64,000 nt of DNA, taken from contig NZ_JACJQG010000010.1 of NCBI RefSeq assembly GCF_014696435.1, positions 62,001 to 126,000 on the forward strand. Direction: 5' to 3'. The translations under genes were made by a program, and so were the position numbers. The DNA comes from Calothrix anomala FACHB-343 (GTDB lineage Bacteria > Cyanobacteriota > Cyanobacteriia > Cyanobacteriales > Nostocaceae). Below, piece after piece: positions 14,337 through 37,513 of this stretch. The notes beneath the pieces were generated by a model. It made no database searches. It saw only the letters and a program-made list of their open reading frames with translations, and was not told where the DNA came from. Numbering within the stretch: position 1 is the stretch's first letter; the number at the start of each line of letters is the position of its first letter.

Positions 14337-15008
14337 TTAAAACAGTGACAACTGCTCCATCTTAGTATTACTTTCAGTTGAATTTGCTGTAACAGCGTGT
14401 TTGTTGTTCTTTGAAGACTTTTTACCCCATCCCTCTTTCGCCGCGTGTTTGACTACACGAGAACGAATATCAGCAGCCAGGGTTTCATAATCAGAGCGAA
14501 TTTTGTTATACGAAACCGGAGTTGTACCAATCTTTTCCCAGAGGTTTTCGTAGTTGAAATTCTTGAAAGGTCTGTGTCTGACAAGGGCATCATAACTTGC
14601 CCAGAGGTAAACATCTGTCCATTGGGATGATAGCGGCACTTCAAAAGCAATTGGCATCATCAGTGCAACAACTTCGCTACTAGAGGCGAGTTTACCTACT
14701 TCTCCCTTGTCTATCTCTTGTAAAGCTGCATCTAATCTATCAACTGCGATCGCTTTTCCTACCCACGTGGGAATTGACTGTTGCCAGCTGTTCTGCTGAG
14801 TAACAATTGGCCCGGCGATGTATTGAACAATTTCACGACTTGCTCCTGCTAGATCGAGTAGGCTGGCTGTTACAGCTTTATTAATCCCTTGGCTGGTTAG
14901 TAGTTGAAGTATTTTTCTAGTGCTGGGGTTTAATATTTCGCTGGTTTTTTGGTTTTTACTGTTGCGGATGGTTTCTTCGACATCGAATAAACTGTGCTGC
15001 TGGTTCAT
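14337..15008 (-). CDS. Hypothetical protein with clamp-binding peptides
   Basis: A 223-residue protein of unknown function. The C-terminus is MEQLSLF, an ideal beta-clamp binding motif (QLSLF); the N-terminus MNQQHSLFDVEE also fits the looser pattern (QHSLF). The body is helical (KILQLLTSQGINKAVTASLLDLAGASREIVQYI could be an HTH-like segment) with a basic patch near the end (KKSSKNNK). It lies directly downstream of holB/holA, so it probably acts at the plasmid replisome. Confidence 0.62.
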   Translation of the reverse strand: MNQQHSLFDVEETIRNSKNQKTSEILNPSTRKILQLLTSQGINKAVTASLLDLAGASREIVQYIAGPIVTQQNSWQQSIPTWVGKAIAVDRLDAALQEIDKGEVGKLASSSEVVALMMPIAFEVPLSSQWTDVYLWASYDALVRHRPFKNFNYENLWEKIGTTPVSYNKIRSDYETLAADIRSRVVKHAAKEGWGKKSSKNNKHAVTANSTESNTKMEQLSLF

Positions 15009-15029
15009 ATCTTTTATGTGTAAACTAAT

Positions 15030-15061
15030 ACTGCCAGCTAGAAATACTTCTAACTGGCAGT
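15030..15061. terminator. Stem-loop between holB and next gene
   Basis: ACTGCCAG-CTAGAA and TTCTAA-CTGGCAGT pair. The T-run lies on the plus-strand side (GCTTTTTG), so its direction of action is unclear; it may be a processing or attenuation hairpin. Confidence 0.5.
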
Positions 15062-15086
15062 GCTTTTTGATAATGAGTGGGTGTTG

Positions 15087-15962
15087 TTATGGCAGAAGTA
15101 GGGTATCCCAAACGCTTCTGGGCGTAACGTGATGCAGCAATTGCTGTCTTGCTTGGGTGAATTTAGCTAGTAGCTTAGTACTTTTTAATTTCTGCCACCA
15201 GTTGTATTGCAGGTAGGTAAGCAACCATAACTGCGTCTGGTGATTCCAGCTTGAGATGGAGTTACTCAAACTGAGTGCCTTGAGAATATCGTCAGGAGGC
15301 ACTTCCAGTTGACTTGTGATTTCTTGTGAGATGGAACCTAACATTTTAATATTGGCGATCGCTTGACCAGGACTGCCCGAACTGATAGCTAGTATTTTTT
15401 CTGTTGCCTCAATCTGTTGGTTTTTAAGGACAGAAATAACCTCCTCATCAGTTAACCTTTGGAAAGGTATGATTTGACACCTACTCTTGATAGTGGGTAA
15501 TAGCTTTTGAGGATAGGATGATATCAGAATAAACGTTCCAGTTTTAGGTTCTTCCAGCGTCTTGAGAAGTTTGTTAGCGGCAGTAGGGTTGAGCATATCT
15601 GCTTCGTGGATAATCACCACCTTTTGCTTGCCCTCGACTGCACTAGTTGAGAGAAATTCAATTACCTCGCGCACCTGTTCTACTCGGATAGCAGGTACAC
15701 CTTTCTGCTGGGCGGTGTTTTCGGTATAGGTTGGTTTGATTTGTAAGATGTCTAGATGTTTAGATTCTCCTGCGTTCGTGGAGCGACTTCCTTTTGAGAG
15801 TATTGCATTTGCAAATGCCAGAGCAGTTTTTCCTTTGCCCACTCCTTCAACTTCGCTGCTAAATAGGTATGCGGGAGCAATTTGATTACGTTCGATTGCT
15901 TCAGTTAGTAGAAGTTTGGCGGTATGCTGTCCGATGATTTCTGTAAATAAGTCGTTTTTCAT
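15087..15962 (-). CDS. holB: DNA polymerase III delta-prime subunit (clamp loader)
   Basis: AAA+ clamp-loader subunit. Landmarks are EIIGQHTAKLLLTEAI at the N-terminus, P-loop-like SSEVEGVGKGKTALAFANAI, VVIIHEADMLNPTAANKLLKTLEEP (Walker B region) and the SRC motif in TIKSRCQIIPF. The P-loop is divergent (EGVGKGKTAL). Its length (about 290 aa) is normal for delta-prime and the C-terminus is helical. The ATG at 15962 overlaps the TGA of holA (ATGA), so the two are coupled. A plasmid-encoded copy is unusual; it belongs with holA, dnaX and dnaN nearby. Confidence 0.88.
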   Translation of the reverse strand: MKNDLFTEIIGQHTAKLLLTEAIERNQIAPAYLFSSEVEGVGKGKTALAFANAILSKGSRSTNAGESKHLDILQIKPTYTENTAQQKGVPAIRVEQVREVIEFLSTSAVEGKQKVVIIHEADMLNPTAANKLLKTLEEPKTGTFILISSYPQKLLPTIKSRCQIIPFQRLTDEEVISVLKNQQIEATEKILAISSGSPGQAIANIKMLGSISQEITSQLEVPPDDILKALSLSNSISSWNHQTQLWLLTYLQYNWWQKLKSTKLLAKFTQARQQLLHHVTPRSVWDTLLLP

Positions 15963-16918
15963 ATCGTGCAAATTTCGATAATTCGGCTAGTTAAATTGTT
16001 AGTGCCGCTTTTGAGTTCCGTTTCGAGTTGTAAAAGTAAGGTAAGGCTGTTTTTCAGTTTTTTAACGCCTATAAACTTGATTTCATCTTTGAGGTAATAT
16101 AATCTTTTAGGGTTTTTCAGTTCGGCTATTTCTGCAATCTTAGTATCAGATAATTTAGCTTCTACGCCAGCTTTAGTTATTAGCCAAGTGCGAAAAACTG
16201 ACGTAAGAGTTGCTACTATTTTGAGTGGATGTTCATTACTATCTAGTAGTTTATCCACCTGCGCTATTGCCAAGTTTGAATGATTTCTTAACATAGCCAT
16301 AGTAAGCTTTTGGTAGTCAGCATTGTGATTACTAACTAATTGTTTTATCTCGTCAAAAGAAATAATTTTTTCACTTGCATAGACAGCAAGTTTAGCAAAT
16401 TCGCTATCGGCTCGTGCAGTGTTATTACCAATTGCTTCAACTAGATAATCAGTCACATCTGGTGTAAGTTTAACTTGATGGATAGCTGCATACTTCCCTA
16501 TCAAATTAACTATCCCCTTTTTATCCCAACAAGGAACGAGAGGAAACTCTTCTTGTTGAGCATATTTTAGGATAGTTTTGACTACTGTTCTGCGGGAATC
16601 TGGCTTTTTGTTACTAGTAATTAAAAGAATGTTACTTGCAGGTATTCGAGAAAGTTGATTTTCAATTTCTTGGTTATTATCCTCATTTGATAAACTTCCA
16701 ATTAAATGCTCGCTGTCTGTATGAACAATCTTATTACCCTCTCCAAAGGGTAAAGTCATAACCTCAGTAAAAACCTTGGCAGCAATATTTTTCTCATTTG
16801 CAGATAGCTTGATGTAGTTGAAAGCTTTCCATTCAGTATGAACATTTTGATTCACCAAATGGTTTATTTTTTGATTGAGCGAATAGGTATCTTCGCCGTA
16901 GTATAGGTATACTGGCAT
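15959..16918 (-). CDS. holA: DNA polymerase III delta subunit (clamp loader wrench)
   Basis: A 319-residue delta subunit that opens the sliding clamp. The N-terminus MPVYLYYGEDTYSLNQKI, the ILLITSNKKPDSRRTVVK region, DVTDYLVEAIGNNTARADSEFAKLAVY and the C-terminal collar helices (AMLRNHSNLAIAQVDKLLDSNEHPLKIVATLTSVFRTW) follow the HolA pattern. The leader holds a small hairpin (16924-16941) 5 nt before the ATG and the recurring motif plus its AGTGGTT extension (16948-16969). Coupled to holB by a 4-nt overlap. Confidence 0.87.
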   Translation of the reverse strand: MPVYLYYGEDTYSLNQKINHLVNQNVHTEWKAFNYIKLSANEKNIAAKVFTEVMTLPFGEGNKIVHTDSEHLIGSLSNEDNNQEIENQLSRIPASNILLITSNKKPDSRRTVVKTILKYAQQEEFPLVPCWDKKGIVNLIGKYAAIHQVKLTPDVTDYLVEAIGNNTARADSEFAKLAVYASEKIISFDEIKQLVSNHNADYQKLTMAMLRNHSNLAIAQVDKLLDSNEHPLKIVATLTSVFRTWLITKAGVEAKLSDTKIAEIAELKNPKRLYYLKDEIKFIGVKKLKNSLTLLLQLETELKSGTNNLTSRIIEICTI

Positions 16919-16947
16919 TGCAGATTAGATAAACATCTAATTATCAT

Positions 16948-16969
16948 GCGTTAGTTATCAGCAGTGGTT
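16948..16969 (-). promoter_or_regulatory. Recurring leader motif, long form, upstream of holA
   Basis: On the minus strand AACCACT, 7 nt, ACTAACGC; the motif begins 29 nt before the holA ATG. The same two-part motif occurs at 31960-31980 (primase) and 37547-37568 (helicase). Confidence 0.5.
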
Positions 16970-16997
16970 AAAAAAAGAAGAGTTAGTATTAACTCTT
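16970..16997 (-). terminator. Intrinsic terminator after the 17040 gene
   Basis: Minus strand: AAGAGTTA and TAACTCTT stem, tetraloop, then CTTTTTTT. Confidence 0.75.
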
Positions 16998-17039
16998 TCT
17001 GCTTGGTATTTATTATGTAGTGACCAGTAAATACCTTAC

Positions 17040-17822
17040 TTAAGTTTGTGCTGGTTGTACGAAATTTTGAATTGAATCTTTATCAATATGGTTCTCTACT
17101 GGTTTATTACCCAAGTATTTGCGCCAAGAATCTAACTGTTGAAGGTACTCTATTACTCCACTAGAACCAGCTACCTCGTATAGTGTAATAGCTGTTTCCC
17201 ATTCCTTTAAGCTGGCTTGTTTCTCTGAGAGAATTTTGACTATAGCTTCGGGAAGTTTAGTGTCTTGACCAGTATCTAAATTTAGGTGTGATGTGTTTTC
17301 TAGTAATATTTCTTGTCCACATAGAGTAACACCATCATCTTTTATATTTGTAGTATGAATTTGAACATTAATCTCTGATAAAGGAAGAGTATATTGAAGA
17401 AATTTTTTAACTTTTTTGGTTTTAGTATTTCTCCTTTTTGATTTAATGATAACTGGGTTGTTTGGTTCTGCAACTTCGTAACATTGAGGGAGTTCTAGAG
17501 AGAGTTGACCTGTTAAGTGCCATGATGCGCTTCGTTTTTCTGGTGGGGTAATGCGATAAGAGAACTCAGCCGTTTTCCTGGGATCGCCAGACTTTCTTAG
17601 TTTAACCCACATGTTGTAGCTGATAATTCCTTGGATGTAACTTTTCGGGTCTAATATTACTGGGGTTGTGTTTTCCCACCACTCAATTTGAACTACGCGA
17701 TCGCCATCTAATTCGTAGATAGTTCTAACTCTGGCATTAGGATGAGACGAAAGGAATGAGTTTACCCAAGCCCTTTGCTTTTTATTAAGCCTGGGCTTGC
17801 GAGAAGAGGATTTATTTTTCAT
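17040..17822 (-). CDS. Hypothetical basic protein
   Basis: A 260-residue protein with no recognised domain. The N-terminus is strongly basic (MKNKSSSRKPRLNKKQRAW), suggesting nucleic-acid contact. The middle contains GQLSLELP, which loosely resembles a clamp-binding peptide but is internal and may be chance. It sits directly downstream of the polymerase gene, separated by hairpins at 17845-17867 and 17878-17900, and upstream of holA. Confidence 0.58.
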   Translation of the reverse strand: MKNKSSSRKPRLNKKQRAWVNSFLSSHPNARVRTIYELDGDRVVQIEWWENTTPVILDPKSYIQGIISYNMWVKLRKSGDPRKTAEFSYRITPPEKRSASWHLTGQLSLELPQCYEVAEPNNPVIIKSKRRNTKTKKVKKFLQYTLPLSEINVQIHTTNIKDDGVTLCGQEILLENTSHLNLDTGQDTKLPEAIVKILSEKQASLKEWETAITLYEVAGSSGVIEYLQQLDSWRKYLGNKPVENHIDKDSIQNFVQPAQT

Positions 17823-17910
17823 TAGTTACAGACAAATCAGAATGTATGAATTTGAAAAACATTCATATTTATTAGCTTTGAGATTTACGTAAAATCTCAA
17901 CTTTGTTCGT

Positions 17911-19728
17911 TTAGAAAAGAGATAACTGACGTTTGTTACTTTCTAGTGTCGCAGGAGCAGCTATTTTAAGAATTTCTTCTCGCCTTTTTTCAATTAAGTG
18001 AAGATAGTATTGGCGTGAGTAATTTTCATTACTGCTGATATTAGTTATGCCGCTAATTCCGTAATAGTAAGTTACTACATCTCCAGGTTTCCCTAGTTTG
18101 AGGATTTCTTTTTCGCCCTCTTTAATTTTGCGTGTGATTGCAAGTTTTTCTTTTGGATATTCCCTTGATAAAATCTGGGATTTGATGTGTGCATAATAAT
18201 CTTCTGCTACTGATACATTTTGAATTAGCAGGGTTAAATACTCAATAGAAAACTCTTTCTCTAGTTGAGAGCGATCGCGGTTGCGCCAGTTGCCTTTAGT
18301 GATGATTTTCCCGTCTGGAAGCCATAAAAGGTAATTTTTGGTTCCCCGTTCTGGAATAAACATAGCGTCAGCGATAAACTCTAGCTTGACAGTTATCCCT
18401 TTAGGCAATTGAGATTGAAGTAAACTACGTACCTCTTCTGGGTTGGGATGGGTGAAAAACACTCCATCGGTGTCAACTTCCACAGGAGTACCACCGTGCT
18501 GAGTGATAATTTCAATCATTAGCTTGAGTACTTTTCGACTGTAGGCTGTAACTAATGCAGCAGCCTCCATATCATTGAACGCGAGTTCAGACGTGCCGAA
18601 GAATCCAAACTCAGAGTTAGCTAAAACCTTGATGGATTCTCTTTTTTCCTTAGCAGCAACATCTCCAGCAGATGCAAGTTGTTCCAGCCTAGATTTTTCA
18701 TTCACCAAATATTGCAGAATACTTAGCCCAATACGTTCTGTATCTTTAATTGAGCAAATACCCTTATCTAGCATTGCCCAAGGGTGCATTGAGCTAATAT
18801 CTGCATATCCAACTCTTCTATACAGTCCAGGAATAGAGTAGGCCATCCCTCCTTGGAATTTGTACTTGCGATCGGGTTTTGGTTTATAACCTGGATAATG
18901 ATGCTCAAATATTCGTTCCCATTTAGTACCATTACCAGCAAGTGTTAGCTGCTGGAGATTCATTTCCGGTACAATTAGTGCTTCGTAATAGTATGAGGGT
19001 ACAAGTCTATTCGCAATTAGCCGGGTGTCTTCGAGGTCGTAGACAAGATACTCTTTTAGGCGTTTCCATCCCTTACTGTTGGGGCCATCTTTCCAACAAG
19101 CGAGGATTTCCTCATAGGGAAGAACTAGCCTAGTATTCTGGCGCAGTCCCATGTCCAATACAGCCTTTTTGAGCGATCTGCCGTTAGTTAACTTTTTGGC
19201 TATGAAATCCCACCTCAGAACACATATATAAATGTCTACGTGTTGGCTATTTCGGATGAACACCTCCTGAACTTTTAGTGGCTCACCCCGTACTTGGGCG
19301 GTACGAATAGTCCGAGATTTGGATGCAACTTGAAATGGGTGTTTTATACCGTGCAAGTTGCATCGAGTAATAATAAATGGAATATCAAATGCCATCCCGT
19401 TATAGGTGAAAATGACATCTGGATTTCTTTTACTGAGATGGTTGATAAATTTGGTCAGTATTTTAGCTTCTGAGATATCCATGAAAATAGTAGAATATCC
19501 CCTTGAATCCATACAACCAATAGCATAGATACGGCTTTCAAAGGGGTTTATTCCTGCTGTTTCGATATCGACAAATATTTGTGAAAGTTCCTGATACGGC
19601 TTGAGTTGTATTTTGGATTGCCAAGGTTTTATTGGAGAGGGGTCTTTCCAATAAATGTTTAGTTTGTCTTCATCAACAACGATTATTCCTCTAGATTTTT
19701 TTACAAAATCTCTGTGGTTATAATTCAT
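17911..19728 (-). CDS. Compact family B DNA polymerase with C-terminal clamp-binding motif
   Basis: Replicative-type polymerase of 605 residues. The 3'-5' exonuclease is complete: Exo I FVDIET (D54, E56), Exo II TYNGMAFD (N110, D115), Exo III YDLED (Y230, D234). Polymerase motifs: A YADISSMHP (D310; the usual Tyr of SLYP is His), B KVLANSEFG (K367, N371), C EVDTDGV (D419, D421), then GTKNYLLW (KKRY-like). It is shorter than Pol II or phage B polymerases, with a reduced inter-domain and thumb region. The last residues KRQLSLF form a textbook beta-clamp peptide, and dnaN is about 2 kb away, so it is probably clamp-dependent. Start ATG 19728 follows an AGGAAA element. Confidence 0.92.
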   Translation of the reverse strand: MNYNHRDFVKKSRGIIVVDEDKLNIYWKDPSPIKPWQSKIQLKPYQELSQIFVDIETAGINPFESRIYAIGCMDSRGYSTIFMDISEAKILTKFINHLSKRNPDVIFTYNGMAFDIPFIITRCNLHGIKHPFQVASKSRTIRTAQVRGEPLKVQEVFIRNSQHVDIYICVLRWDFIAKKLTNGRSLKKAVLDMGLRQNTRLVLPYEEILACWKDGPNSKGWKRLKEYLVYDLEDTRLIANRLVPSYYYEALIVPEMNLQQLTLAGNGTKWERIFEHHYPGYKPKPDRKYKFQGGMAYSIPGLYRRVGYADISSMHPWAMLDKGICSIKDTERIGLSILQYLVNEKSRLEQLASAGDVAAKEKRESIKVLANSEFGFFGTSELAFNDMEAAALVTAYSRKVLKLMIEIITQHGGTPVEVDTDGVFFTHPNPEEVRSLLQSQLPKGITVKLEFIADAMFIPERGTKNYLLWLPDGKIITKGNWRNRDRSQLEKEFSIEYLTLLIQNVSVAEDYYAHIKSQILSREYPKEKLAITRKIKEGEKEILKLGKPGDVVTYYYGISGITNISSNENYSRQYYLHLIEKRREEILKIAAPATLESNKRQLSLF

Positions 19729-19869
19729 TAATTAGAGATTTTCCTAATTCATGTTGATATTAATTTTTAACTATCAAGTTAACTGCGTATGCTGCTGTGG
19801 TAGTAAATGTTAATTTATTTGGTTATTTGATTAAATAAATATAGAAATAAGTATGGTTAATCAGTACTT

Positions 19870-20496
19870 ATGAATGAATTAAGCAATGAAACACGAGTGA
19901 TTTTAATTGGTGGCTCCTCTCATGTAGGCAAATCCACCCTTGGCCAATCTTTGGCGGCGAGGCTTGGTTGGAGTTATCGTTCTACAGACAAACTCGCTCG
20001 GCATCCTGGACATCCTTGGGTGGGTGCAAATAGAAATGCTATTCCAGAACACGTAGCAGAACATTATGGAACTTTGTCTGTTGACGCTCTTTTTGTAGAT
20101 GTATTGTCGCATTATGAGAAAAATGTGTTACCGCAAGTCGAGATTATCGTTCATTCTCATGCGTCTGATTTATCAACGGAATGCCTTATCCTTGAAGGCT
20201 CTGCATTATGGCCTGAATTTGTAGCGAATTTAGTTAGCGAAAATGGTGTTAAAGCGATTTGGCTTACGGCTAGTGACCAACTCTTCTCTTACCGAATCTT
20301 TAGTGAAAGTAATTTTTATAATGTAAGTGAGGATAAAAAACACCTAATTCAAAAGTTTTTAGACCGTACCTTATTATATAATAAACGCATGAGGGAGAAG
20401 GTTGAACATCTCGGATTTATATGTATTGATGTAGAATCTGTGTCAGTGGCAGACGAACTTTCAAAGAAATGTATGGAATTGATGCAGGTTGCCTAA
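19870..20496 (+). CDS. P-loop kinase-like protein
   Basis: A 208-residue P-loop NTPase: Walker A ILIGGSSHVGKSTLGQSLAARLG near residue 15, followed by YRSTDKLARHPGHPW, an LILEGSALWPEF strand (Walker B-like position) and a C-terminal lid region with R/K. The layout recalls small-molecule kinases (2-phosphoglycerate kinase, chloramphenicol phosphotransferase-like), but the substrate cannot be told. It is the only plus-strand gene within the replication cluster, between polB and dnaX, so it is probably inserted cargo. AT-rich promoter region upstream. Confidence 0.7.
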   Translation: MNELSNETRVILIGGSSHVGKSTLGQSLAARLGWSYRSTDKLARHPGHPWVGANRNAIPEHVAEHYGTLSVDALFVDVLSHYEKNVLPQVEIIVHSHASDLSTECLILEGSALWPEFVANLVSENGVKAIWLTASDQLFSYRIFSESNFYNVSEDKKHLIQKFLDRTLLYNKRMREKVEHLGFICIDVESVSVADELSKKCMELMQVA

Positions 20497-20570
20497 ATGA
20501 GAGTATTTTAATAAATATTAAGCCCTTTAGTAGTTTTAGCATTTTAATTGTTACTAAAAAACTATAAATT

Positions 20571-20598
20571 GAGGATTATAACTATAGTTATAACCCTC
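20571..20598. terminator. Stem-loop between convergent kinase and dnaX
   Basis: GAGG-TTATAAC and GTTATAA-CCTC arms with single mismatched bases form a nearly continuous palindrome; a T-rich stretch lies on the minus-strand side. Confidence 0.6.
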
Positions 20599-20605
20599 AT
20601 TAAAG

Positions 20606-21895
20606 TTAAGCTTGCTGTAATTGTTTTTGTTGCAGCTTTTGGACAGCTTCTACCCAAGCAGGTGCCTTTTTACCATTAATAGGTGTCAGCTTTTGCCAGT
20701 GTTCTTGTAACTGGGCTTGTGTTAAGTGGGGTAATTGTTCCTTGCCCCAGTTAATCGCATCTTGAGCAGTTTTCCAATCCTTCCAGGGTTGTGATTGGTG
20801 ACTACCCTTGTTGGTTGGAACTATCTCGATAAGTGTAGCTTCTAACCAAAGGTGTGCGTCTTCATCCCGCATGAGATTTTGGCGTGCCATTAAGATTGCG
20901 ATCGCGTTTCGGATCTGGTCGATATTCCACAACTGCGAGATACTTACTAATTCCTCCCAGGTGTCCTCTTCTAGCTGTGTAAGATGTCTGCTATTGGGAT
21001 TAGTTTTGCACACAAGTAAGTCTTTGAGGAAGTTGACAAGACTTGTATGGATGGCAGTTGGCAGTTTACCAGATTCAATCCAATCTTGGAGAATGCCTAA
21101 ATTGCCCGTAATTTCTCCTTTGATGATATTTTCACAGACGGTGAGTAGATCGTATTCGGGAATAGTGCCTGATAGTTCCCAAACCCAGTTAGAGGTAATT
21201 TCCTCTTCACCTAGTAAAGTTAGCTGATCTAACAGTTTGAGTGAGTCGCGCAGATGTCCCTTGTTTGCTTTAGCTACGGCGGTAACTGCTGATGGTGCAA
21301 TGTTGATACTTTCTTGGTGAGATATTTGTTCTAGGTAGCTTGCAACTAGCGAGACAGGAACTCTCTTAAAGTCAAACTTTTGGCAACGGGAGACAATGGT
21401 TTCTGGAACTTTGTGTAACTCGGTTGTGCAGAAGATAAATACTACATGACGGGGAGGGCTTTCAATGGTTTTGAGAAGTGCTTGCCACGATTGGCTGCTT
21501 AGGGCATGACATTCATCAATAATGAATATTTTGAATCTACCCTCCACTGGTGCAAACTGGATAGTGGATATAAGCTCTCGGATCAGTTCTACTCCACTAT
21601 TACTTGCTGCATCCAGCTCGGTTACATCAACAGAAGAAGATGCTGTAATTCCCTTGCATGAATTGCATTCTCCACAGGGCTTGGTTGCCGGCTCATTGCT
21701 TGACTGACAGTTAAGAGATTTAGCGATGATGCGGGCGGTACTGGTTTTGCCCGTACCTTTGGGGCCACTAAATAGGTAAGCAGGTGCAATCTTTTGGAGC
21801 GCGATCGCATTTATGAGAGTGCGAACGATATGTTCTTGCCCAATAACTTCACTAAGAGTCTGGGGACGGTATTTGAGATGTAGTGGTTGGTACAT
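20606..21895 (-). CDS. dnaX: DNA polymerase III subunit gamma-type (clamp loader ATPase)
   Basis: AAA+ motor of the clamp loader. The N-terminus LKYRPQTLSEVIGQEHIVRTL is diagnostic; Walker A GPKGTGKTS is at residues 44-52; the zinc site is C63, C74, C77, C80 (PCGECNSC); Walker B FIIDECHALS; SRC in IVSRCQKFDF. At 429 residues it corresponds to gamma and lacks the long tau extension that binds PolC/DnaE, which fits pairing with a family B polymerase instead. Downstream of dnaN, separated by a stem-loop. Confidence 0.94.
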   Translation of the reverse strand: MYQPLHLKYRPQTLSEVIGQEHIVRTLINAIALQKIAPAYLFSGPKGTGKTSTARIIAKSLNCQSSNEPATKPCGECNSCKGITASSSVDVTELDAASNSGVELIRELISTIQFAPVEGRFKIFIIDECHALSSQSWQALLKTIESPPRHVVFIFCTTELHKVPETIVSRCQKFDFKRVPVSLVASYLEQISHQESINIAPSAVTAVAKANKGHLRDSLKLLDQLTLLGEEEITSNWVWELSGTIPEYDLLTVCENIIKGEITGNLGILQDWIESGKLPTAIHTSLVNFLKDLLVCKTNPNSRHLTQLEEDTWEELVSISQLWNIDQIRNAIAILMARQNLMRDEDAHLWLEATLIEIVPTNKGSHQSQPWKDWKTAQDAINWGKEQLPHLTQAQLQEHWQKLTPINGKKAPAWVEAVQKLQQKQLQQA

Positions 21896-23374: not shown

Positions 23375-24367
23375 TTAGTAGGGCAATTCTTCCATCTCAG
23401 TACTGTATGCTGTATAAGCTTGACCTGCTGTACTAGGAGGAAGTGCTGCTACTGGCATATCAGCTGCACCTACCAGGCGATTATGTTCTGCTACAACAGT
23501 TGATGTTTTACCGATGCGGTGAGAGAATTCGGGATTTGCCTGCATTGTGGTTTGGATATCGATTTCTTTGCCTTCTGAGAAGAATTCGAGAAAATCGCTT
23601 CCATCGGGGTTTGGTGATTTGTAGGAAGTGACAACTGCTACCCAAGATTTATCTCTTTGATTGACTGCTTCTTTAGGTTCAAGAGATGGCGTAAAAGTGG
23701 GTTGAAATACACCGAGGCGATGAAACTCTGCACGTTTTTCAGCGACAGTTGCATTAGTAAATCGGGCAAATGCAACCTCTAGTTCGCGTTGGAACTGTTT
23801 ATAAGCCTCGCCAAATTTTGATGATGCAACGCCTTTAATTGATAGGACAATTGGTACTGAGTGCAGGTTATGATTATTTTCATCAACAAGTTGCAACAAA
23901 TAAAACCGTCTCAATACTGCGGCATCTTTGCCAAGTGCTTGGTACATTTCGTACCCATCAGGTGATTCGTACACTCCTACGATTTTGCCATCATCGCGCT
24001 GTTCAATATATCTGGGAGAAACATCAAGAATGTGCATCCTGGGCGATTGCAACAACACTCCCATTTCTGGCGTGCCACTAGAGAAGGTGTGCTTGTGTGT
24101 AGGTTCTTGTCCTTGCCAGTTAATTGCTGCTAAGTATTTATCTTTGATAAACAACCCGACTTTTTCTGCTTCCATGTGATTGATTACTTGGCAGATGCAG
24201 ATATTACTAATCGGCGCATTGTACTCAGGATTTGCAAATTTAGAAATAGCTAATTTACGCTTTTGTATTTTTGTACTATTTTGAACTGTTTGTTCAGGGG
24301 GTTCAGACTGGGATACTGTGCTTTCTTCAGTAGCAGAATTAGTAGGCTTTGTTTGACTTTTTGGCAT
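23375..24367 (-). CDS. Conserved hypothetical (possibly DUF5895-like)
   Basis: A 330-residue protein upstream of dnaN. It has a disordered N-terminus rich in T/S/E/Q (about 35 residues), then a globular part beginning KLAISKFANPEYNAPISNICICQVIN. From memory this resembles a cyanobacterial plasmid family (DUF5895), but I cannot confirm it. Short C-terminal tail ends MEELPY. The placement next to the clamp gene hints at a role in DNA metabolism; nothing catalytic is visible. A variant of the leader motif (GCTTTACGC, near 24398) lies 30 nt upstream. Confidence 0.6.
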   Translation of the reverse strand: MPKSQTKPTNSATEESTVSQSEPPEQTVQNSTKIQKRKLAISKFANPEYNAPISNICICQVINHMEAEKVGLFIKDKYLAAINWQGQEPTHKHTFSSGTPEMGVLLQSPRMHILDVSPRYIEQRDDGKIVGVYESPDGYEMYQALGKDAAVLRRFYLLQLVDENNHNLHSVPIVLSIKGVASSKFGEAYKQFQRELEVAFARFTNATVAEKRAEFHRLGVFQPTFTPSLEPKEAVNQRDKSWVAVVTSYKSPNPDGSDFLEFFSEGKEIDIQTTMQANPEFSHRIGKTSTVVAEHNRLVGAADMPVAALPPSTAGQAYTAYSTEMEELPY

Positions 24368-27076: not shown

Positions 27077-27934
27077 CTATTTGTGGTAATTTGTTTGCGG
27101 AATATAGTATTTTTTAAGTTGGTCGATGCTTGTATATAAACTTCGGGTTGACATTGCTTTGAGGTCAAAATAACTGGCGAACTTTTTCAACCCCCCAGTG
27201 AGGGTTAATTCAAGTAAATACTGGGCTGCGATCGCACTCGTCATTTTATTGACGAATAGTGATTGATAATTCCGTGCTTGAATTTCTGCACATGAAAGGT
27301 TATTGTCGCTAAGTTCTTCTGGCTGAGGAACTAGCAGTTCTGGGTGAACCAGCACCGGGGAGGGAAGATGCAACCAGAATTGAGGTTTGTCTGGGTTATT
27401 GGAAGCTTGGACTATATCAAAATTAGAGTGCGTTCCAATTACTACTTGTCCAGAGTAGTTGCTGTTTCCACAATCCAGCCAAAATAGCGATGCGGGTTCA
27501 TTTGCACTGTTTATTTTGAGAACAGAGTGAATTTTGCTCCTGGCGGCGCTGTTATCTACACAGCCAATAATTACCGTTAGAGTGTTCCACCAACTGGCCG
27601 TGCGAATCATGTCTTCTTCAAACCAGTCGCAAACAGCTGTAATCTCTATTCCATACTTGGCACTGCATCTTGCAGCCAGTGTTTCTGCCTTTGGTAGCCC
27701 AATTTCAGCCTGTTGATAATTTTGGCGGCTGATATTCTTGAGTTCGACAGTATCGCCATCAACGATCGCAAAGTTAATTTCTTTCCTAGTGCGCTGGAGT
27801 TGCAGAATAATTCGACATAAATCTTCTGCAAGAAACCCGCCTGTTCCTCCTACTCCTACTAAGACGAAGTTGATACGAGTATGATTGCGAGGTAAGACGG
27901 GTAAAGCTTGTTGGTAAGTAGTTAATTCAAGCAT
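27077..27934 (-). CDS. PRTRC system ThiF-family (E1-like) protein
   Basis: A 285-residue E1-like adenylyltransferase. Rossmann loop GVGGTGGF (residues 27-34), IVDGDTVELKNISRQNY (acidic strand plus N and R that bind ATP), IGLPKAETLAARC, and IGCVDNSAARSKI are all in place. NLSCAEIQ (Cys215) matches the cysteine-containing segment of PRTRC ThiF proteins and is the candidate thioester site. It overlaps the JAB-like gene by 13 nt, making a coupled E1/JAB pair. It would activate a ubiquitin-like tail; the candidate is the PRTRC protein C at 30012-30434. Confidence 0.86.
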   Translation of the reverse strand: MLELTTYQQALPVLPRNHTRINFVLVGVGGTGGFLAEDLCRIILQLQRTRKEINFAIVDGDTVELKNISRQNYQQAEIGLPKAETLAARCSAKYGIEITAVCDWFEEDMIRTASWWNTLTVIIGCVDNSAARSKIHSVLKINSANEPASLFWLDCGNSNYSGQVVIGTHSNFDIVQASNNPDKPQFWLHLPSPVLVHPELLVPQPEELSDNNLSCAEIQARNYQSLFVNKMTSAIAAQYLLELTLTGGLKKFASYFDLKAMSTRSLYTSIDQLKKYYIPQTNYHK

Positions 27935-28518
27935 TTTACCTGTGGCGGCAGTTCAAATATTTGATTGGGGTTGATGTCGAAAAAGTGATTGTATATCCCG
28001 ATGCGGGTATAAATTGTGGCAATGGTATTCAGTGTGCCAACGATTGCGAACACTCGAAATTTGCCTTTTTCTTCCTGATTGTCTGCACTTGAAGGATAAG
28101 CAGCTAGAGTTCCATGACTGTGCATTTCCACTAAGCCATCTGTATAGTTTTTATTGAGTGCGCTTTCTAAAGATAAGACATGAGTAGAGGACGAGGTTTG
28201 CAGTGGTGTGTGACACCACCATTGGTTGTTTGTCACTCCCAAGTAGAATAAGATTTCCTGTTGGGGGTTGATACTAGCAGCATTGATAATCTCCGCGATC
28301 GCTTGGCAAGGAACTTTTGGGACTTTCAGACGAAAGTAGGGTTCAAGGGGTTGGAGTCCAGCGACTTGAGTTTGAGTTAGTTGCAAGCAAACCTCTAACT
28401 CGCGGCGGTGCGATCGCAAGAAAAGCCCATTTGCAGCCAGCCAGTATTCCTGGAGTTTTTGGCTGTAAGGAGGAAAGTTATTACTTGTAGCGAGGTGATA
28501 ACCGATAAAAGGATTCAT
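27922..28518 (-). CDS. PRTRC system protein A, JAB/MPN-type metallopeptidase
   Basis: 198 residues with an intact JAMM motif near residue 132: HSHGTLAAYPSSAD is exactly HxH-x7-SxxD, and an upstream Glu is available. Such JAB proteins remove or process ubiquitin-like modifiers. The N-terminal half follows the PRTRC-A arrangement. It overlaps ThiF by 13 nt and starts 3 nt after the stop of the protein B gene. Confidence 0.82.
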   Translation of the reverse strand: MNPFIGYHLATSNNFPPYSQKLQEYWLAANGLFLRSHRRELEVCLQLTQTQVAGLQPLEPYFRLKVPKVPCQAIAEIINAASINPQQEILFYLGVTNNQWWCHTPLQTSSSTHVLSLESALNKNYTDGLVEMHSHGTLAAYPSSADNQEEKGKFRVFAIVGTLNTIATIYTRIGIYNHFFDINPNQIFELPPQVKCLN

Positions 28519-28520
28519 GG

Positions 28521-29243
28521 TTAACTGAACAAATGATTGATAATGTCTTCTGGGGTTGTGACTTTCCAGCTATGAACGGGAACAAGGTCACTTGAAGGGT
28601 AGGATTTAGCTTTAGATTCGTGTAATTTGATTAGCTGATTGCAGATATTATCGGGATGAGTTTTTGACTTGCCTTGAGACAAATCCTTGTTAAAAGGTGA
28701 TTTCCAGAACAGATCCCAAACTTGGCTTATGGTTGCAGCACTGCACATACTGAGAGAATTTCCCCCAAAGCAAATGCTAGAATCTTCCCAAACGTTAGCT
28801 AGAGGCGGCTTGTACAGTTGTGCGTCTGGTTTAAATACCCTCCCTTTAACTGCCCACAGGTAATATCTACTACCGCATCCAGCAAATAAGAATGCAGGCA
28901 TAGGGACAGTCATTACTTCAGTTTCCTGTCCCATAATTTGAATTTGATATTTTTGGGGAGAGTAAAACTGAATAATGGCTTCTCCCTCTGGATTTTTACC
29001 CCACCAAATCGTGTTGCTAGAAAGCCATCCAGATGCGGCAGTTTTACTTGTAAAGGCTTTCTCTACTGCTTCAGGAGACAAGAATTTATATTTAGACTCT
29101 TTGCCTTCGCGTTCGACTAAAATAAACTGTCCTTTGAGGATAATTAACTGCCCTAGTAAATCATCTTGGGGAATATTGGCTAGCAGAATTTGGGAGATAT
29201 TTTCTAAGTTAATTATCGGTAAGATATTTGTGTCTACATTCAT
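28521..29243 (-). CDS. PRTRC system protein B (E2-like)
   Basis: About 240 residues. AFLFAGCGSRYYLWAVK, then QLYKPPLANVWEDSSICFGGN is the PRTRC-B core and resembles the E2 active-site region (PNV...G.ICLG), with the Cys in ICFGG (about residue 158) as candidate catalytic cysteine. ATG 29243 overlaps the TGA of the preceding gene (ATGA); the frame is open to 29264. It sits immediately before JAB and ThiF, consistent with an E1-E2-JAB conjugation module. Confidence 0.8.
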   Translation of the reverse strand: MNVDTNILPIINLENISQILLANIPQDDLLGQLIILKGQFILVEREGKESKYKFLSPEAVEKAFTSKTAASGWLSSNTIWWGKNPEGEAIIQFYSPQKYQIQIMGQETEVMTVPMPAFLFAGCGSRYYLWAVKGRVFKPDAQLYKPPLANVWEDSSICFGGNSLSMCSAATISQVWDLFWKSPFNKDLSQGKSKTHPDNICNQLIKLHESKAKSYPSSDLVPVHSWKVTTPEDIINHLFS

Positions 29244-29968
29244 GCTTTTGATGCTTGATTCCAAATTTTCACTGCTGCTTTTCGAGCAGAAAGAGATGTT
29301 TCTAACAAATGGCTAACCTCATTTGATTTCTCTATCATCGAGACGGCTTCTTGCCACTTTTGAGCGAGAAATATGATATTCTCATAAGTCCATTCCAGCC
29401 AATCGCTTGTTTCACACGTAATATCTAGCCAAATATTTTCAGTCGAGTAATCTATAATTCGTATGGCTATATCTAAATATTGCAGGGGACTTTTGTAACG
29501 ACGACACAGCTTTACAAATTTCTCGAAGTAAATTTCTTCTGTTGGAGCAATGTAGTCAGGAGTAAAACCAAAATTTAGTTTCCATTGGCTGATATTGTAC
29601 CCTTGCCCCATTAATGAAAGTAGGAACTTCTCCGAGTATACCAGTTCCTCAAAATCTTCATTCCACCACTCAAGTCTTTGTGGTGAAACTAGAATACTAT
29701 CACGTTCGGGATTAAACTCGATTTCATCGATATATTCTACTGGAAATAGATTTTCGTTCACTAGATTAATAAATTCAATTTCTCTATCTAGGTAAGCACT
29801 AGTTGGATGTGATTGTTTATTAATAGGTATGGTTGATTCTAACCATTTTTCTGGAAATAATCTTTGATACAGACTTAAAATATTCACTCGTTCGGAAAGA
29901 TTTTCTAGGTAATTAATTGCTGTTAGAGAAGTAATAGGTATTTTGAATGAGTGGATGTTGCCAAGCAT
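29240..29968 (-). CDS. PRTRC-associated protein (position of protein F)
   Basis: A 242-residue protein without recognised motifs, tryptophan- and acid-rich (LEWWNEDFEELVY, WLDITCETSDWLEWTYENI). It occupies the place of PRTRC protein F between proteins C and B; identity as F is inferred from position only. The last codons overlap the next start. A hairpin (29977-29999) precedes its ATG by 8 nt. Confidence 0.6.
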   Translation of the reverse strand: MLGNIHSFKIPITSLTAINYLENLSERVNILSLYQRLFPEKWLESTIPINKQSHPTSAYLDREIEFINLVNENLFPVEYIDEIEFNPERDSILVSPQRLEWWNEDFEELVYSEKFLLSLMGQGYNISQWKLNFGFTPDYIAPTEEIYFEKFVKLCRRYKSPLQYLDIAIRIIDYSTENIWLDITCETSDWLEWTYENIIFLAQKWQEAVSMIEKSNEVSHLLETSLSARKAAVKIWNQASKA

Positions 29969-30438: not shown

Positions 30439-30921
30439 TTAAAATAGTGACAGTTGGTTGTTAGGTGCAGGATTTTTATCTTTATCTTCAGGTAGGTTAC
30501 GCTTTTGTACTTGTCTGGATTGCTCCTGTCGATTCTGCTCTGTAGTCTGCTTTTCCATCCTTTGTTTGCAGATATTTAACATTCCTGGGAGAGATGTTTC
30601 TAAATCCTGTAGCCAGTTATTTATGATAGGCTGAGATTTAATCTCAGCTAGAGGAATTATCTTAATAATCGGAGGTGCATCTTGAATTCCAATTGTTACA
30701 ATTGCTTTCTCAGAATTTGGTGTTAACTGAATTGTTATTATGGCGGTTTTCGTAAAAACTATCCCGCTAGATGAATCTTGACTTATAACTTCAGTATTTA
30801 CTGATTCATCTAATGTTTCTTCTAAATTTAGACTGTCCTGAATATCAAGATTAAAATCTTTACTGCTATAGCTATCTTCAAAGCCAGTTGCATTATCGTC
30901 AGGTGATGTTTGATTACTCAT
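30439..30921 (-). CDS. PRTRC system protein E-like, with C-terminal clamp-binding motif
   Basis: 160 residues: an acidic, disordered N-terminus (about 50 residues), a small strand-rich core (TAIITIQLTPNSEKAIVTIGIQ...IIPLAEIKSQP) and a Q/R/K-rich tail ending NNQLSLF, an ideal beta-clamp peptide. Core and position fit PRTRC protein E; similarity is weak. The clamp peptide links the PRTRC module physically to the plasmid clamp. It is 2 nt from the primase stop and 4 nt from protein C. Confidence 0.65.
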   Translation of the reverse strand: MSNQTSPDDNATGFEDSYSSKDFNLDIQDSLNLEETLDESVNTEVISQDSSSGIVFTKTAIITIQLTPNSEKAIVTIGIQDAPPIIKIIPLAEIKSQPIINNWLQDLETSLPGMLNICKQRMEKQTTEQNRQEQSRQVQKRNLPEDKDKNPAPNNQLSLF

Positions 30922-30923
30922 GA

Positions 30924-31952
30924 TTAAGAGAGATTAGCTAATCTAAATAAGGTGCGGATAGTGATACCTGTCTTGTTAAAAGACTGCCATTTGTAGGCGC
31001 ATTCGCCTGGTTTGTACTTAGGAGAAAGTTGGCTCCAGGTGTCCCATGCCTTAAATAAAATGGGACTAACACTATGAAGTGCCATCCCGACTTGAATCCA
31101 CGAATGGTAATCATCTGCAAATCGAGGGTGGATGACTTCGAGTAGCACAAGTGCGGTTTGAATATTGGTTTCTATTGACGGAATTAAATGAGCGTACCTG
31201 TCTACCCCATATCTGCGGTTATATTTTTCTTTGGGTAGGTTAAACTTTCTTGTTTTCTCCTGTTTGGCAAGCATTTGGGCAATTACCCAATCGGGAGCTA
31301 TTTCTATTTGGCGTTCAGATGGACTACAGCCGGGAAGCCATTTGTAATTTCTACCTTCTGGGTGAAAGGACGGGGGGAGGATTGAAGCTAGGTTTTTGCC
31401 TCGAAATTCCAGGTGTTCGTCCTTCCCAGTTTTGATTTTGCGAGATTTGACATCGCAAGCTTTTGAATTTGGGATGAGGTATAAGCGTTGGCTGCGATAT
31501 TTCCTCCCAGAGGTAAATGCAATTGTGGGAGGGAGATATTGTTGAGCGCGATCGTGTAACGATTCCGTAGGAGTTTCGCTGATGGGTGTTAGCTGGTTAA
31601 GTTCTTTTGGTTCTAAGTGTTCGTTAATTTGGATGATTTGTCGCCAGGATGTTTCCCCATCGCAGTCAATAGCTACTAAGTACCCTTGGGGATGATTGAA
31701 ACCGCAAACCAAGGCTACACCAGTGGGTGTGATAAATCTGTTATTTGTCCAAACTTTTAGCCGACGGCGGATGAGTTCAGTTTGTAGTTCTTTGGGAGAG
31801 TAAGTGTTTTTTTCCCATTCTTTCCCTAGAGGACGTTTACCAAAGGTAGGGACGATTCGCCATTCTTCGGGTAAGTTGTCAAGTGAAGATACCAAATGAC
31901 GGATTTGGGCGTGCATGAGTTCATAAAACTTTTTATTAAATGACTCCTGCAC
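30924..31952 (-). CDS. AEP-type primase (Prim-Pol plus PriCT-like C-terminus)
   Basis: Up to 342 residues. The N-terminal bifunctional primase/polymerase domain shows TGVALVCGFNHPQGYLVAIDCDG (metal-binding DxD near residue 94), IAFTSGRKYRSQRLYLI and HLEFRGKNLASILPPSFHP. The C-terminal part DDYHSWIQVGMALHSVS...LFKAWDTWSQLSPKY...YKWQSF is a PriCT-type module. There is no helicase domain. The longest frame starts at GTG 31952; ATG 31916 is likelier because the leader motif (31960-31967) then lies 43 nt upstream as in other genes. First gene of the primase-PRTRC run. Confidence 0.84.
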   Translation of the reverse strand: MQESFNKKFYELMHAQIRHLVSSLDNLPEEWRIVPTFGKRPLGKEWEKNTYSPKELQTELIRRRLKVWTNNRFITPTGVALVCGFNHPQGYLVAIDCDGETSWRQIIQINEHLEPKELNQLTPISETPTESLHDRAQQYLPPTIAFTSGRKYRSQRLYLIPNSKACDVKSRKIKTGKDEHLEFRGKNLASILPPSFHPEGRNYKWLPGCSPSERQIEIAPDWVIAQMLAKQEKTRKFNLPKEKYNRRYGVDRYAHLIPSIETNIQTALVLLEVIHPRFADDYHSWIQVGMALHSVSPILFKAWDTWSQLSPKYKPGECAYKWQSFNKTGITIRTLFRLANLS

Positions 31953-33578: not shown

Positions 33579-33595
33579 TTATCGGCGGGACGCTT

Positions 33596-33773: not shown

Positions 33774-33875
33774 TGGGTTGTGTTGACAAATCCAACATTT
33801 GCGATAGCCGAAGGCTTAAGCTTCGCTTATCGCACTCTCAGATGATACACAAAGCGTCATCTGAACATCTTTTTT

Positions 33876-33917
33876 ATTACTACCAGTAATTTACTGGTAG
33901 TAATTGATTTTTTCTAA
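33876..33917. terminator. Perfect 14-bp stem, bidirectional terminator
   Basis: ATTACTACCAGTAA, one base, then TTACTGGTAGTAAT, followed on the plus strand by TGATTTTTTC. Sits between convergent genes; two further hairpins precede it (GCGATA...TATCGC about 33797-33832 and CAGATGA...TCATCTG 33839-33863). Confidence 0.7.
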
Positions 33918-33945
33918 TATAAATATTTCAGATGGCGATTATGTT

Positions 33946-34692: not shown

Positions 34693-34753
34693 CGCTTATT
34701 CTCAAAACTTTCATCAATCTTGTGCGTAAGCGATGTATGTGGTTGAATTACTA

Positions 34754-34785
34754 AAAAAATAATCCTACCCAAGCTGGATAGGATT
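34754..34785 (-). terminator. Intrinsic terminator after helicase gene
   Basis: Minus strand AATCCTA and TAGGATT stem followed by ATTTTTTTAG. Confidence 0.8.
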
Positions 34786-34792
34786 ATCTTAA

Positions 34793-37513
34793 CTATTGAT
34801 TAATAGTTCTTGTCTCTGTTGGATTGATTATTTCCTTTAGTAGAGATAACCCAACTGATTTAAACAGTGCTTCGTTATCATCAGGGCAGCGTTGAATTGT
34901 TGTACAAGAAGAGCAGCCGTATTTACAAGGACAATTATCGACTAGAAACTTTGCCTTAATAAAGGCAGTCTCTAAATACTTGATGAGGGTATCGCACATA
35001 CCTGTACCATGTTCACAAGTATCAAAGAAATAGCCAACTATCTTAGTATTAGACGGCACTTCTACTAACATGAAATCTATATCTCGACTGTTTGCTCCAT
35101 GTTCGACAAGTGGTAAACTGAGTATAAGGTGATGAGCGAGAGTATGAACGCAAATTTGGGTTTCATTGCTTTCAAATAGTTGTTTCTCCTCATTGGTAAT
35201 ATATTTCTGTTTGTTAAGTATCTCTTTTCTGTGATTTTTGACCACAACTGAAAAATATTTTCTTGCATCAGCGTTAATTTCAACCCTAACGCAGAATGTA
35301 TTGTAGTTAAGAGCAAGTGATTCTTCGTATTTATTTTCCTCCAAAAGTTCGACAGATTCTCGTTCAATCAGTTGGGTTTTACAAGCATAGCAAGTTTGTA
35401 AGTGTCCAGGTAAGTTTAAATTGAAATTGCGACATCTGTTATTAGTGCAAGTCCATTTTTGTTCCAGTCTGTACAAGTTGTAGCCATAAATTTCTTCTTT
35501 GATTTTGGCTGAAACAGGTGTAAATCTAGCAGCCCCTTGGGGAAGATTGATAATTTTGGCTTCCCCTACAATTTTAATTTCCTCGAAATTTAGGCTTCCT
35601 TCAGGGCGACTAAATAAATTGGTTGCTTCAATTGGCTTGAGAATGGCTTTCCCTTCAGTTAAATTTAGTTCTTGTGATTTATACTGTACGGGGTTGCCGT
35701 CGAAATCTTGAGCAAGATATATGGCACCAGGGTAAACTTCTCTTAGTGCAGAAGATGCCGAACTTTCCTCAAACTCTTCTGCGCTATCTTGATTGATATA
35801 ACTAATGTTTTGGTCAGTGTTGCCTCTAACTTTAATTTTTGAGTGGACATAACCGAGATTTCGATTAGTTGTCAGTCTTTGATTGTAGCTGAAGATTAGT
35901 TGATTATCACCGATTAACTGTCGGGCGATCGCATTACCAGAATTACCGAAATGTCGGGCAATTTGAGCTTGTGTCGGTTTACTTTCTTTGCAACAAGCGA
36001 GAATATGCTGCTCCAAAGTTGTTTCATAATTGTGGTTAAAGTTGATAATTTCTGGAGGATCAGATAAAAGGCGTTCTGGGTAATTGGCGTAGTAAGAATC
36101 CATAATCGACCTTTTCGACGGAATAAACACCAATAGTCCTGCTTCCTGCCTCCCTGCACGTCCTCCCCTTTGGCGAAAGGCAAGAATTGAGCCAGGGTAA
36201 CTATGTACGATAGTTGCATCAATAGACCCAATATCTAAACCCGCCTCCAAAGCACTTGTGGATATAATGAACTTGACCTTCCCGCTTTGTATATCTGCAA
36301 TAATTTTGTTACGCTGATTTGCCTTCATGCTCCCATAAAATGCTGAGATAGTTTCTCCCAGATGGGGCAGTTGCATCTCGATTAAAGCTTTACGTATGGC
36401 ATTAGTTAAAACCTTAACCAGTTCCCTACTATCGCAGAAACAAATCCCGACGATGCCTTTACTTACGAGCATAGCTGCGACTTGGGCAGTTTGGTAAAAT
36501 GTATTGTTCCGTGGTTTGAGACTAATAAAAGTAATCTCCGAGCGTTTTGCCCCACTTTGGTCAATAATAGCAAGGTTACTTTGTTCTTCTCGATTAGATA
36601 TCTTCTGGGCAATTTCGCTGCTGTTACTAATTGTTGCAGAAGCGAAGATGTATTGTAATTTTGAAATATCATTGCCGACAGACTCTATCATAAGTTGAGT
36701 TCGCCGATTAAGTAGTGCAAAATGCGAACCAAATATGCCTTGATAAAAGTGCATTTCGTCACAGACAATGATTGAAAGTTTTCTGATTGTTTCTCTAAAT
36801 CCCCAATTTGAATCAAATTGAAAGTTGTTAAGTTCGTGGTTCCATACATCGGGAGTCACGCATAAAATTGAGGGTTGATTGCTGTAAAGTTGTTTGCGCT
36901 CCTGGGGAGGAATATCACCATTAATATTGAGAATTTGAGGGCGAATATTTTCATCTAAGTGGCTAACAAAGGAACGTATTTTCTCTACCTGGTCAAATGC
37001 AAGTGCTTTCAAGTTAAAAAATACTAAAGCTGATTTACCCTTTAGACACTCGTGAATGATTGGAATGAGAAAAGAGATACTTTTACCACTGCTGGTAGGA
37101 GTTTGGAGAATTATATCTTCTCCTTTTTTGTAAGCTTGCCATGCCTCGACTTGATGAGAATATAATTGACTGATTCCTGACTTGCTTAGGGCTAGTTTAA
37201 CTAGAGGGTGAATATCATCTGGGATGGGATAAAGTTTAGCTTCTTGAGCAGGAATTACTTCGCAGCTTTGTAGTTTTCCAGATCCATCAAGTATAGCAGC
37301 TATCTCTTGGTAGAGAATGCTTTTACCTGTTGGTGCTTGGTTTAGAGGTAATAAATTACCACTATTTACCTCATGCTCCCAGTCGAAAATAATTTGGTTT
37401 AAACTACCCTTTTTAAAGTAAAGGTTTTTCTCAATAATGGCGGCGATATGGATAACACCATGTTCTTTGGAATAAACCTGCTTGTTTGCTTCTAACCATT
37501 CAGGCTGGTTCAT
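34793..37513 (-). CDS. DEAD/DEAH-box helicase with DUF1998 (MrfA/YprA-like)
   Basis: A 906-residue superfamily 2 helicase. Motifs: Walker A TPTSSGKSISF (about residue 140), DEMH box CDEMHFYQG (about 252), FASATISNS (motif III), STSALEAGLDIGSID and RQRGGRAGRQEAG (motifs V and VI). The C-terminal DUF1998/MZB domain ends with the four-Cys cluster CPCKYGCSSC and CPDDNE (about residues 860-880). B. subtilis MrfA, the model for this family, is a 3'-5' DNA helicase in excision repair. Here it may serve plasmid repair or replication. The leader hairpin (37523-37547) contains the probable ribosome binding site. Confidence 0.88.
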   Translation of the reverse strand: MNQPEWLEANKQVYSKEHGVIHIAAIIEKNLYFKKGSLNQIIFDWEHEVNSGNLLPLNQAPTGKSILYQEIAAILDGSGKLQSCEVIPAQEAKLYPIPDDIHPLVKLALSKSGISQLYSHQVEAWQAYKKGEDIILQTPTSSGKSISFLIPIIHECLKGKSALVFFNLKALAFDQVEKIRSFVSHLDENIRPQILNINGDIPPQERKQLYSNQPSILCVTPDVWNHELNNFQFDSNWGFRETIRKLSIIVCDEMHFYQGIFGSHFALLNRRTQLMIESVGNDISKLQYIFASATISNSSEIAQKISNREEQSNLAIIDQSGAKRSEITFISLKPRNNTFYQTAQVAAMLVSKGIVGICFCDSRELVKVLTNAIRKALIEMQLPHLGETISAFYGSMKANQRNKIIADIQSGKVKFIISTSALEAGLDIGSIDATIVHSYPGSILAFRQRGGRAGRQEAGLLVFIPSKRSIMDSYYANYPERLLSDPPEIINFNHNYETTLEQHILACCKESKPTQAQIARHFGNSGNAIARQLIGDNQLIFSYNQRLTTNRNLGYVHSKIKVRGNTDQNISYINQDSAEEFEESSASSALREVYPGAIYLAQDFDGNPVQYKSQELNLTEGKAILKPIEATNLFSRPEGSLNFEEIKIVGEAKIINLPQGAARFTPVSAKIKEEIYGYNLYRLEQKWTCTNNRCRNFNLNLPGHLQTCYACKTQLIERESVELLEENKYEESLALNYNTFCVRVEINADARKYFSVVVKNHRKEILNKQKYITNEEKQLFESNETQICVHTLAHHLILSLPLVEHGANSRDIDFMLVEVPSNTKIVGYFFDTCEHGTGMCDTLIKYLETAFIKAKFLVDNCPCKYGCSSCTTIQRCPDDNEALFKSVGLSLLKEIINPTETRTINQ

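Follow-up and report, generated by a model that had tools for sequence, protein, structure and literature searches.

Plasmids are usually thought to borrow the clamp and the polymerase of their host, which raises the question of what a plasmid would do with a set of its own. We addressed this question in a 64,000-nucleotide stretch of the Calothrix anomala FACHB-343 genome (G000:C2:62001-126000; contig NZ_JACJQG010000010.1, here C2, of 172,575 bases), referred to below as the window, whose numbering is used unless another record is named. One gene cluster there encodes a sliding clamp (dnaN), clamp-loader subunits (dnaX, holA and holB), a family B DNA polymerase (PolB) and an archaeo-eukaryotic primase (AEP). 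Judged by sequence, the parts are established: a clamp bearing a docking cleft, its loader, a proofreading PolB, an AEP primase, a single-stranded DNA-binding protein (SSB), and two proteins, Y and Z, that carry a terminal clamp tag. We hold it to be somewhat better than an even bet that they form a plasmid-private, clamp-centred DNA synthesis module, in which PolB is an important client that is not absolutely required.

A clamp, its loader and a tagged polymerase

The genome is available as a draft assembly in 144 contigs, and C2 may be less than a whole plasmid. Pfam scans of the window revealed genes for the partition proteins ParA and ParB (9417..11170) and for type IV secretion, and a tblastn search of PolB against plasmid records placed complete plasmids among the closest relatives of the cluster. 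Based on these genes, the contig and its relatives, C2 is by content a conjugative-type plasmid, whole or in large part, in line with the plasmid location proposed by an earlier reading made from the sequence alone. Pfam likewise confirmed that dnaN, dnaX, holA, holB, polB, the AEP gene and an MrfA-type helicase gene all lie on the minus strand, as that reading had stated; the genes of proteins X, Y and Z, a DUF5895 gene, parA-parB and the SSB-type genes described below share this strand. The span 14337-37513 excludes both SSB-type genes, and its low end, 14337-15008, is the gene of protein Y, which is clamp-tagged and belongs to the set.

PolB (17911..19728; 605 residues) was recognized by Pfam, by its motifs and by comparison with solved family B relatives. 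Its 3'-5' exonuclease domain scores 3.5e-12 and its polymerase domain 4.1e-5, at the cut-off (Pfam figures throughout are best E values per protein), and the exonuclease and polymerase motifs are intact in the window and in the plasmid sequences. In motif C, a glutamate occupies the second position ahead of DTDG (EVDTDG in the window) in 9 of 10 plasmid PolBs, the exception being L013. The enzyme fits the known bacterial PolB group G3, also by homology to Nostoc phage PolBs placed in G3 by PMC7544198. Its last five residues are QLSLF, a beta-clamp docking tag. A search of all contigs found that C2 alone matches the PolB profile in its own genome.

The plasmid DnaN (21961..23295; 444 residues) has three clamp domains (Pfam 9.4e-28) and matches TIGR00663 over its full length (255.9 bits, cut-off 137.65). 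At the cleft positions known from the E. coli clamp, we found T172, P242, N320, Y323, M362 and P363 in 13 of 13 PolB-type clamps; L155, G174, H175, L177 and V247 are kept with some changes, and R246 and F278 are not kept. By this comparison the docking cleft is largely retained in the plasmid clamp, whose residues there closely resemble those of the host's other DnaN. The C-terminus of a clamp normally lines the docking cleft. All 13 PolB-type clamps continue past the cleft-lining MP residues for 58-102 residues (74 in the window), mostly ending lysine- or arginine-rich, as compared with 5 residues in 18 of 18 chromosomal-type clamps and 4-6 in three of four plasmid clamps of a second kind, described below; for the fourth, from Planktothrix, the pattern wrongly gave 114, and the end of its sequence shows the same short tail. 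Since the normal C-terminus lines the cleft, the plasmid tail starts beside it and may have a gating or DNA-binding role.

The loader genes surround polB. DnaX (20606..21895; Pfam 4.8e-42, also recognized by NCBIfam) retains Walker A, Walker B, an SRC finger and zinc cysteines in a motif check. At 429 residues, against 649 in the host's other full DnaX, it is without the tau extension for DnaE binding, so the gamma length previously ascribed to it is borne out. HolA, the delta subunit (15959..16918), scores 1.2e-29 in Pfam and 175.5 bits against TIGR01128 (cut-off 80); HolB, delta prime, scores 2.5e-36 (frame 15087-15971) and 349.5 bits against NF005638 (cut-off 230). The holB start is most likely the ATG at 15962, because it overlaps the holA stop as ATGA, giving a gene at 15087..15962. 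By Pfam, NCBIfam and the motif check, the cluster has the DnaX ATPase motifs and both delta-type subunits of a DnaX clamp-loader complex. Many relatives (G003, G004, G011 and others) also carry a second DnaX-type match split in two parts within frames of 793-1151 residues, as would be expected of an intein.

Partners that share the tag

Besides PolB, two proteins end in the same Q-L-x-L-F tag, and no other terminal clamp tag was found in the window. Protein Y (14337..15008; 223 residues), which lies after holB, has by its sequence and predicted model a helical core and a disordered tail ending in QLSLF, the tag itself being disordered in the model, and a QHSLF at its N-terminus. Protein Z (30439..30921; 160 residues), identified by sequence, is encoded directly downstream of the primase gene and ends in QLSLF as well. 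Protein X (17040..17822; 260 residues) contains two candidate internal clamp motifs, QLSLEL (106-111) and QYTLPL (143-148), the second within a predicted disordered stretch. The predicted models (mean pLDDT 64.7 for X and 60.4 for Y) served only to separate folded from disordered stretches. The candidate Y of L007 and L009 turned out to be another protein and the candidate X of L013 has no apparent homology to X; these sequences were included in the X and Y profiles, both of which are weakened thereby. The tags suggest that PolB, Y and Z bind the plasmid clamp.

The primase (30924..31952) has both Prim-Pol and PriCT-2 domains over the Pfam cut-off (1.8e-23 and 7.5e-24). Farther out, the cluster includes a DEAD/DEAH helicase with an MrfA Zn-binding domain (34793..37513; Pfam 1.6e-24, NCBIfam), of a repair type, not a replicative one.

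An acidic C-terminal tip is typical of SSB. Two SSBs had been read near the cluster, and one of them stands: Pfam recognizes an SSB at 11802..12185, which lacks the acidic tip and ends in ANANF. The adjoining gene (11309..11728; 139 residues) has no Pfam match at E 0.01, although its product has an SSB-like tip, DEEPPF. Across six plasmids the SSB ends in NANF in five and RADL in one, and its neighbour, of about 138-148 residues, bears an SSB-like tip (DEEPPF, DQEPPF, SDIPF or SHIPF) in all six. The tip and the DNA-binding domain may thus be split between two proteins.

In the module that we favour, the DnaX-HolA-HolB loader would place the plasmid clamp on primed plasmid DNA, and PolB, Y and Z (with the primase) would dock on it through their tags. 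Docking by tags would couple primer making and processive copying on one clamp, and the basic clamp tail at the cleft may give plasmid clients an advantage over those of the host. The host (DnaB) or an unrecognized plasmid factor would unwind the fork and perhaps also provide initiation. The module would most likely serve to synthesize plasmid strands, among them the complement of the single strand received in conjugation, and PolB may act as a replicase.

The module could also act mainly at conjugative entry: primase, SSB, clamp and PolB might make the incoming strand duplex before host factors act, with steady replication left to the host. Type IV secretion and partition genes occur in the same window, the AEP primase and SSB lie near the block, and MOBP relaxase and MPF_T types are seen among the relatives. 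However, the recipient would need to produce the proteins early or receive them from the donor, no promoter linked to transfer was identified, and of ten relatives read, two are typed as mobilizable and one as non-mobilizable. We consider a role mainly at entry unlikely.

Distribution and history of the cluster

The tblastn search covered 72,556 plasmid records, and the 27 matches comprise 18 cyanobacterial and 9 Deinococcus records; PLSDB types 15 of the 27 as conjugative, 4 as mobilizable and 8 as non-mobilizable. All 18 cyanobacterial records also match DnaN (within the 60 listed of 296 DnaN-matching records), a tight co-occurrence of the kind that the sequence-only reading had proposed to test. 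The order dnaN-dnaX-polB-holA-holB is found in 10 of 10 regions read, although in some of them further genes intervene and in one polB is split; excluding the split copy, PolB identity among these regions goes down to 41%. Searches of genome contigs returned 54 PolB loci, 42 with a full-length PolB frame and 33 of them with at least 6 kb on both sides. DnaN, dnaX, holA and holB are all present in 30 of these 33, the exceptions being L028, L044 and L059 (a Nitrospirae metagenome-assembled genome); many of the loci are near-identical and hence not independent. Matches to the PolB profile occur in 6 of 20 relatives and in 15 of 244 genomes drawn from the phylum, own genome counted in each; three of the 15 are full length and several are weak and partial.

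Several records depart from this pattern. In plasmid C of Trichormus variabilis ATCC 29413 (L004:20001-22727) polB is split by ISAva7, and the search table shows the same for strain 0441. It is broken or partial in L056, L060, L061, L063, L064 and L067 (Dolichospermum, Sphaerospermopsis and Aphanizomenon contigs), possibly as remnants of old plasmid integration. In L024 (Calothrix brevissima NIES-22) and L179 the cluster lies within an 8.5-Mb record, either an integrated plasmid or a merged assembly. Some cyanobacterial plasmids or small contigs (L107, L174, L185, L186 and L187) bear a cassette of a second kind, dnaN-dnaX-holA with no PolB, whose members group as a single clade (100/100) in both the DnaN and the HolA tree. 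L107 is the host's own 10,880-base contig C30, with a third, partial set of dnaN (a 243-residue open frame), dnaX and holA.

Could the cluster be a recent copy of chromosomal genes? Its genes share their families with those of the host replisome, whose other copies lie on C75 (DnaN), C90 (DnaX), C102 (HolB), C70 (HolA) and C112 (DnaE) and are presumably chromosomal. Identity between plasmid and other copy is only 40.3% for DnaN, 48.9% for DnaX, 32.4% for HolA and 39.4% for HolB, and in the trees the host's other copies group with those of other genomes, apart from the plasmid ones. No second PolB-profile match exists in the genome. On this range of 32-49% identity and this grouping we rejected recent duplication, which we regard as extremely improbable.

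In the trees, chromosomal-type HolB forms a starred clade (100/99), as does chromosomal-type DnaX (99/98), and twelve PolB-type DnaNs, all but that of L013, form one clade (100/99). The host's other DnaN belongs to a starred group (97/100) made up of 15 chromosomal-type copies and four plasmid copies of the second kind, and the HolA tree separates PolB-type (92/90) from chromosomal-type (83/82) proteins with moderate support. Some results weigh against a single shared origin: the plasmid HolBs split into two groups, support for plasmid DnaX is poor (35/35), and plasmid DnaNs as a whole form no clade in the best tree, yet a single clade is not rejected (p-AU 0.382). Given the HolB and DnaX results, co-inheritance of the whole set is only partly shown. 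Five gene trees from 11 plasmids have 4-8 of 8 splits in common, where 2000 label shuffles gave about 0.3 on average and 3-6 at most, with polB-dnaN (4) and polB-dnaX (6) equal to the shuffle maximum. The old, co-inherited set of the sequence-only reading therefore holds as to divergence from the host copies and only in part as to single origin.

Between the window and a Nostoc C052 plasmid, ten genes including polB are under purifying selection (omega 0.08-0.34). Synonymous divergence (dS) is 2.3 for polB and 1.4 for dnaX, compared with 0.26-0.50 for the other eight genes, and the block 17911-21895 was therefore probably exchanged by recombination.

A phage origin of the whole block was considered and set aside: dnaN, dnaX, holA and holB had no match in phage N1, of which 49,961 of 64,960 bases were fetched and searched. 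PolB itself matches 18 phage records. A scan of viral contigs confirmed no relative, and because those 18 records do match, the scan misses real relatives and is uninformative.

Dependence on the host replisome

DnaB_C matches, which set limits on INDEPENDENCE, fell on C1, C14 and C128 and none on C2, where other helicase types may exist; DnaE matched C112 only and not C2. In the Tolypothrix PCC 7712 plasmid, a relative with a complete sequence, no DnaB, DnaA, DnaG or DnaE, and no initiator or origin, is annotated outside bases 150001-164777, in PLSDB tables that are incomplete. Genome G011 carries dnaN, dnaX, holA, holB and primase on one contig and has no PolB match. Aulosira, Planktothrix and Oscillatoria plasmids have dnaN-dnaX-holA, the 25 kb read shows neither PolB nor holB among the annotations, and their records are absent from the 27 that match PolB. 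By these annotations and searches PolB is dispensable in some related plasmids. The earlier claim of replication largely independent of the host replisome is thus unsupported, because C2 has no DnaB or DnaE match, clamp plasmids without PolB exist, and an insertion sequence splits polB in two Trichormus records. The plasmid may copy its own DNA in part and still need the host for unwinding.

These observations also bear on who does the copying. The host DnaE holoenzyme might mainly copy the plasmid, with the plasmid clamp and loader recruiting or freeing host polymerase and PolB serving in accessory repair or gap filling, as E. coli DNA polymerase II does. The retention of the clamp cassette by PolB-less plasmids, the split polB and the MrfA-type repair helicase in the cluster agree with this, as does the QLGLF clamp motif of polymerase II, likewise a family B enzyme (PMC3716654, available in part). 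Yet polB sits between dnaX and holA in 10 plasmid regions (split in one), it is under purifying selection, and the neighbour of the primase, Z, bears the same tag. We view mainly host-driven copying as possible, clearly less probable than the plasmid module. Slightly more doubtful still is an orthogonal second clamp network, in which the plasmid clamp, its basic tail lying by the cleft, would take PolB, Z, Y and X and exclude host clients, and the G3 PolB would be the true plasmid replicase; if true, it would give this experimentally uncharacterized polymerase group its first role.

Neighbouring genes

Immediately upstream of dnaN lies a DUF5895 gene (23375..24367; Pfam), present in 8 of 10 fetched plasmid regions but not in L007 or L009. 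Between primase and dnaN, at 27077-29264, is a ubiquitin-like conjugation module (ThiF (E1), JAB and Prok-E2 family D), also found in several relatives. A 140-residue protein at 30012-30434 matches the PADLOC model C3a152 (Type III-C specific; E 1e-23). Of the 57 window proteins scanned, 26 have no Pfam match at E 0.01.

Relation to known systems

If the plasmid module is real, a natural second clamp with its loader, polymerase and tagged clients would show a way in which mobile elements set their replication apart from that of the host. It would give PolB group G3 a first testable role and possibly provide an orthogonal replication system for cyanobacterial genetics, and the tags make the hypothesis directly testable through peptide binding.

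In the portions of the literature available, this PolB is already known on plasmids and phages: PMC4916379 (Chenard 2016) describes it in Nostoc phages A-1 and N-1 and on plasmids of Anabaena variabilis ATCC 29413, Nostoc PCC 7120 and Cyanothece PCC 7424, in a main text in which "clamp" does not appear. PMC7544198, in its accessible part, defines group G3 as almost exclusively bacterial and places the Nostoc phage PolBs there. PMC12926913, likewise partial, reports a beta-clamp motif for G3, describes the group as experimentally uncharacterized and does not use the word "plasmid" in its main text; PMC7858055, to the extent available, is unrelated. Among the matches listed, judged by title and start of abstract and with few subscription papers, nothing concerned a plasmid clamp-loader-PolB cluster or tags on its neighbours. 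What is new here, from sequence comparison, is the QLSLF end of this PolB together with the same tag on its cluster neighbours Y and Z.

The A-1/N-1 polymerases are homologous to the plasmid enzyme, and the terminal tag is missing from all 4 phage PolB homologues compared. Three Nostoc-type phage PolBs have an internal QVTIY, which fits the loose pattern only, and the Deinococcus PolB carries QPGLF internally, close to the aligned position. We had entertained a gain of the tag by plasmids alone and dropped it, as the motif is reported for G3 generally (PMC12926913, in part); the phage PolBs may simply have lost it. The earlier description of the set as a phage-like hybrid is consequently weak, given a group that is almost exclusively bacterial and phage homologues without the terminal tag. 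With G3 the plasmid PolB shares intact exonuclease and polymerase motifs, the glutamate before DTDG and the beta-clamp motif, and differs in lying within a plasmid clamp-loader gene run alongside other tagged proteins.

E. coli DNA polymerase II has a chromosomal gene and uses the cell's only clamp and loader. It and the plasmid PolB are both of family B and both have a clamp motif. Phage T4 and this plasmid are both mobile elements with their own clamp, loader and family B polymerase. The T4 replisome also has a primase, an SSB and a helicase. No replicative helicase was found for the plasmid, whose clamp and loader are bacterial DnaN and DnaX, whereas the parts of T4 are similar to archaeal and eukaryotic ones (PMC7544198, in part).

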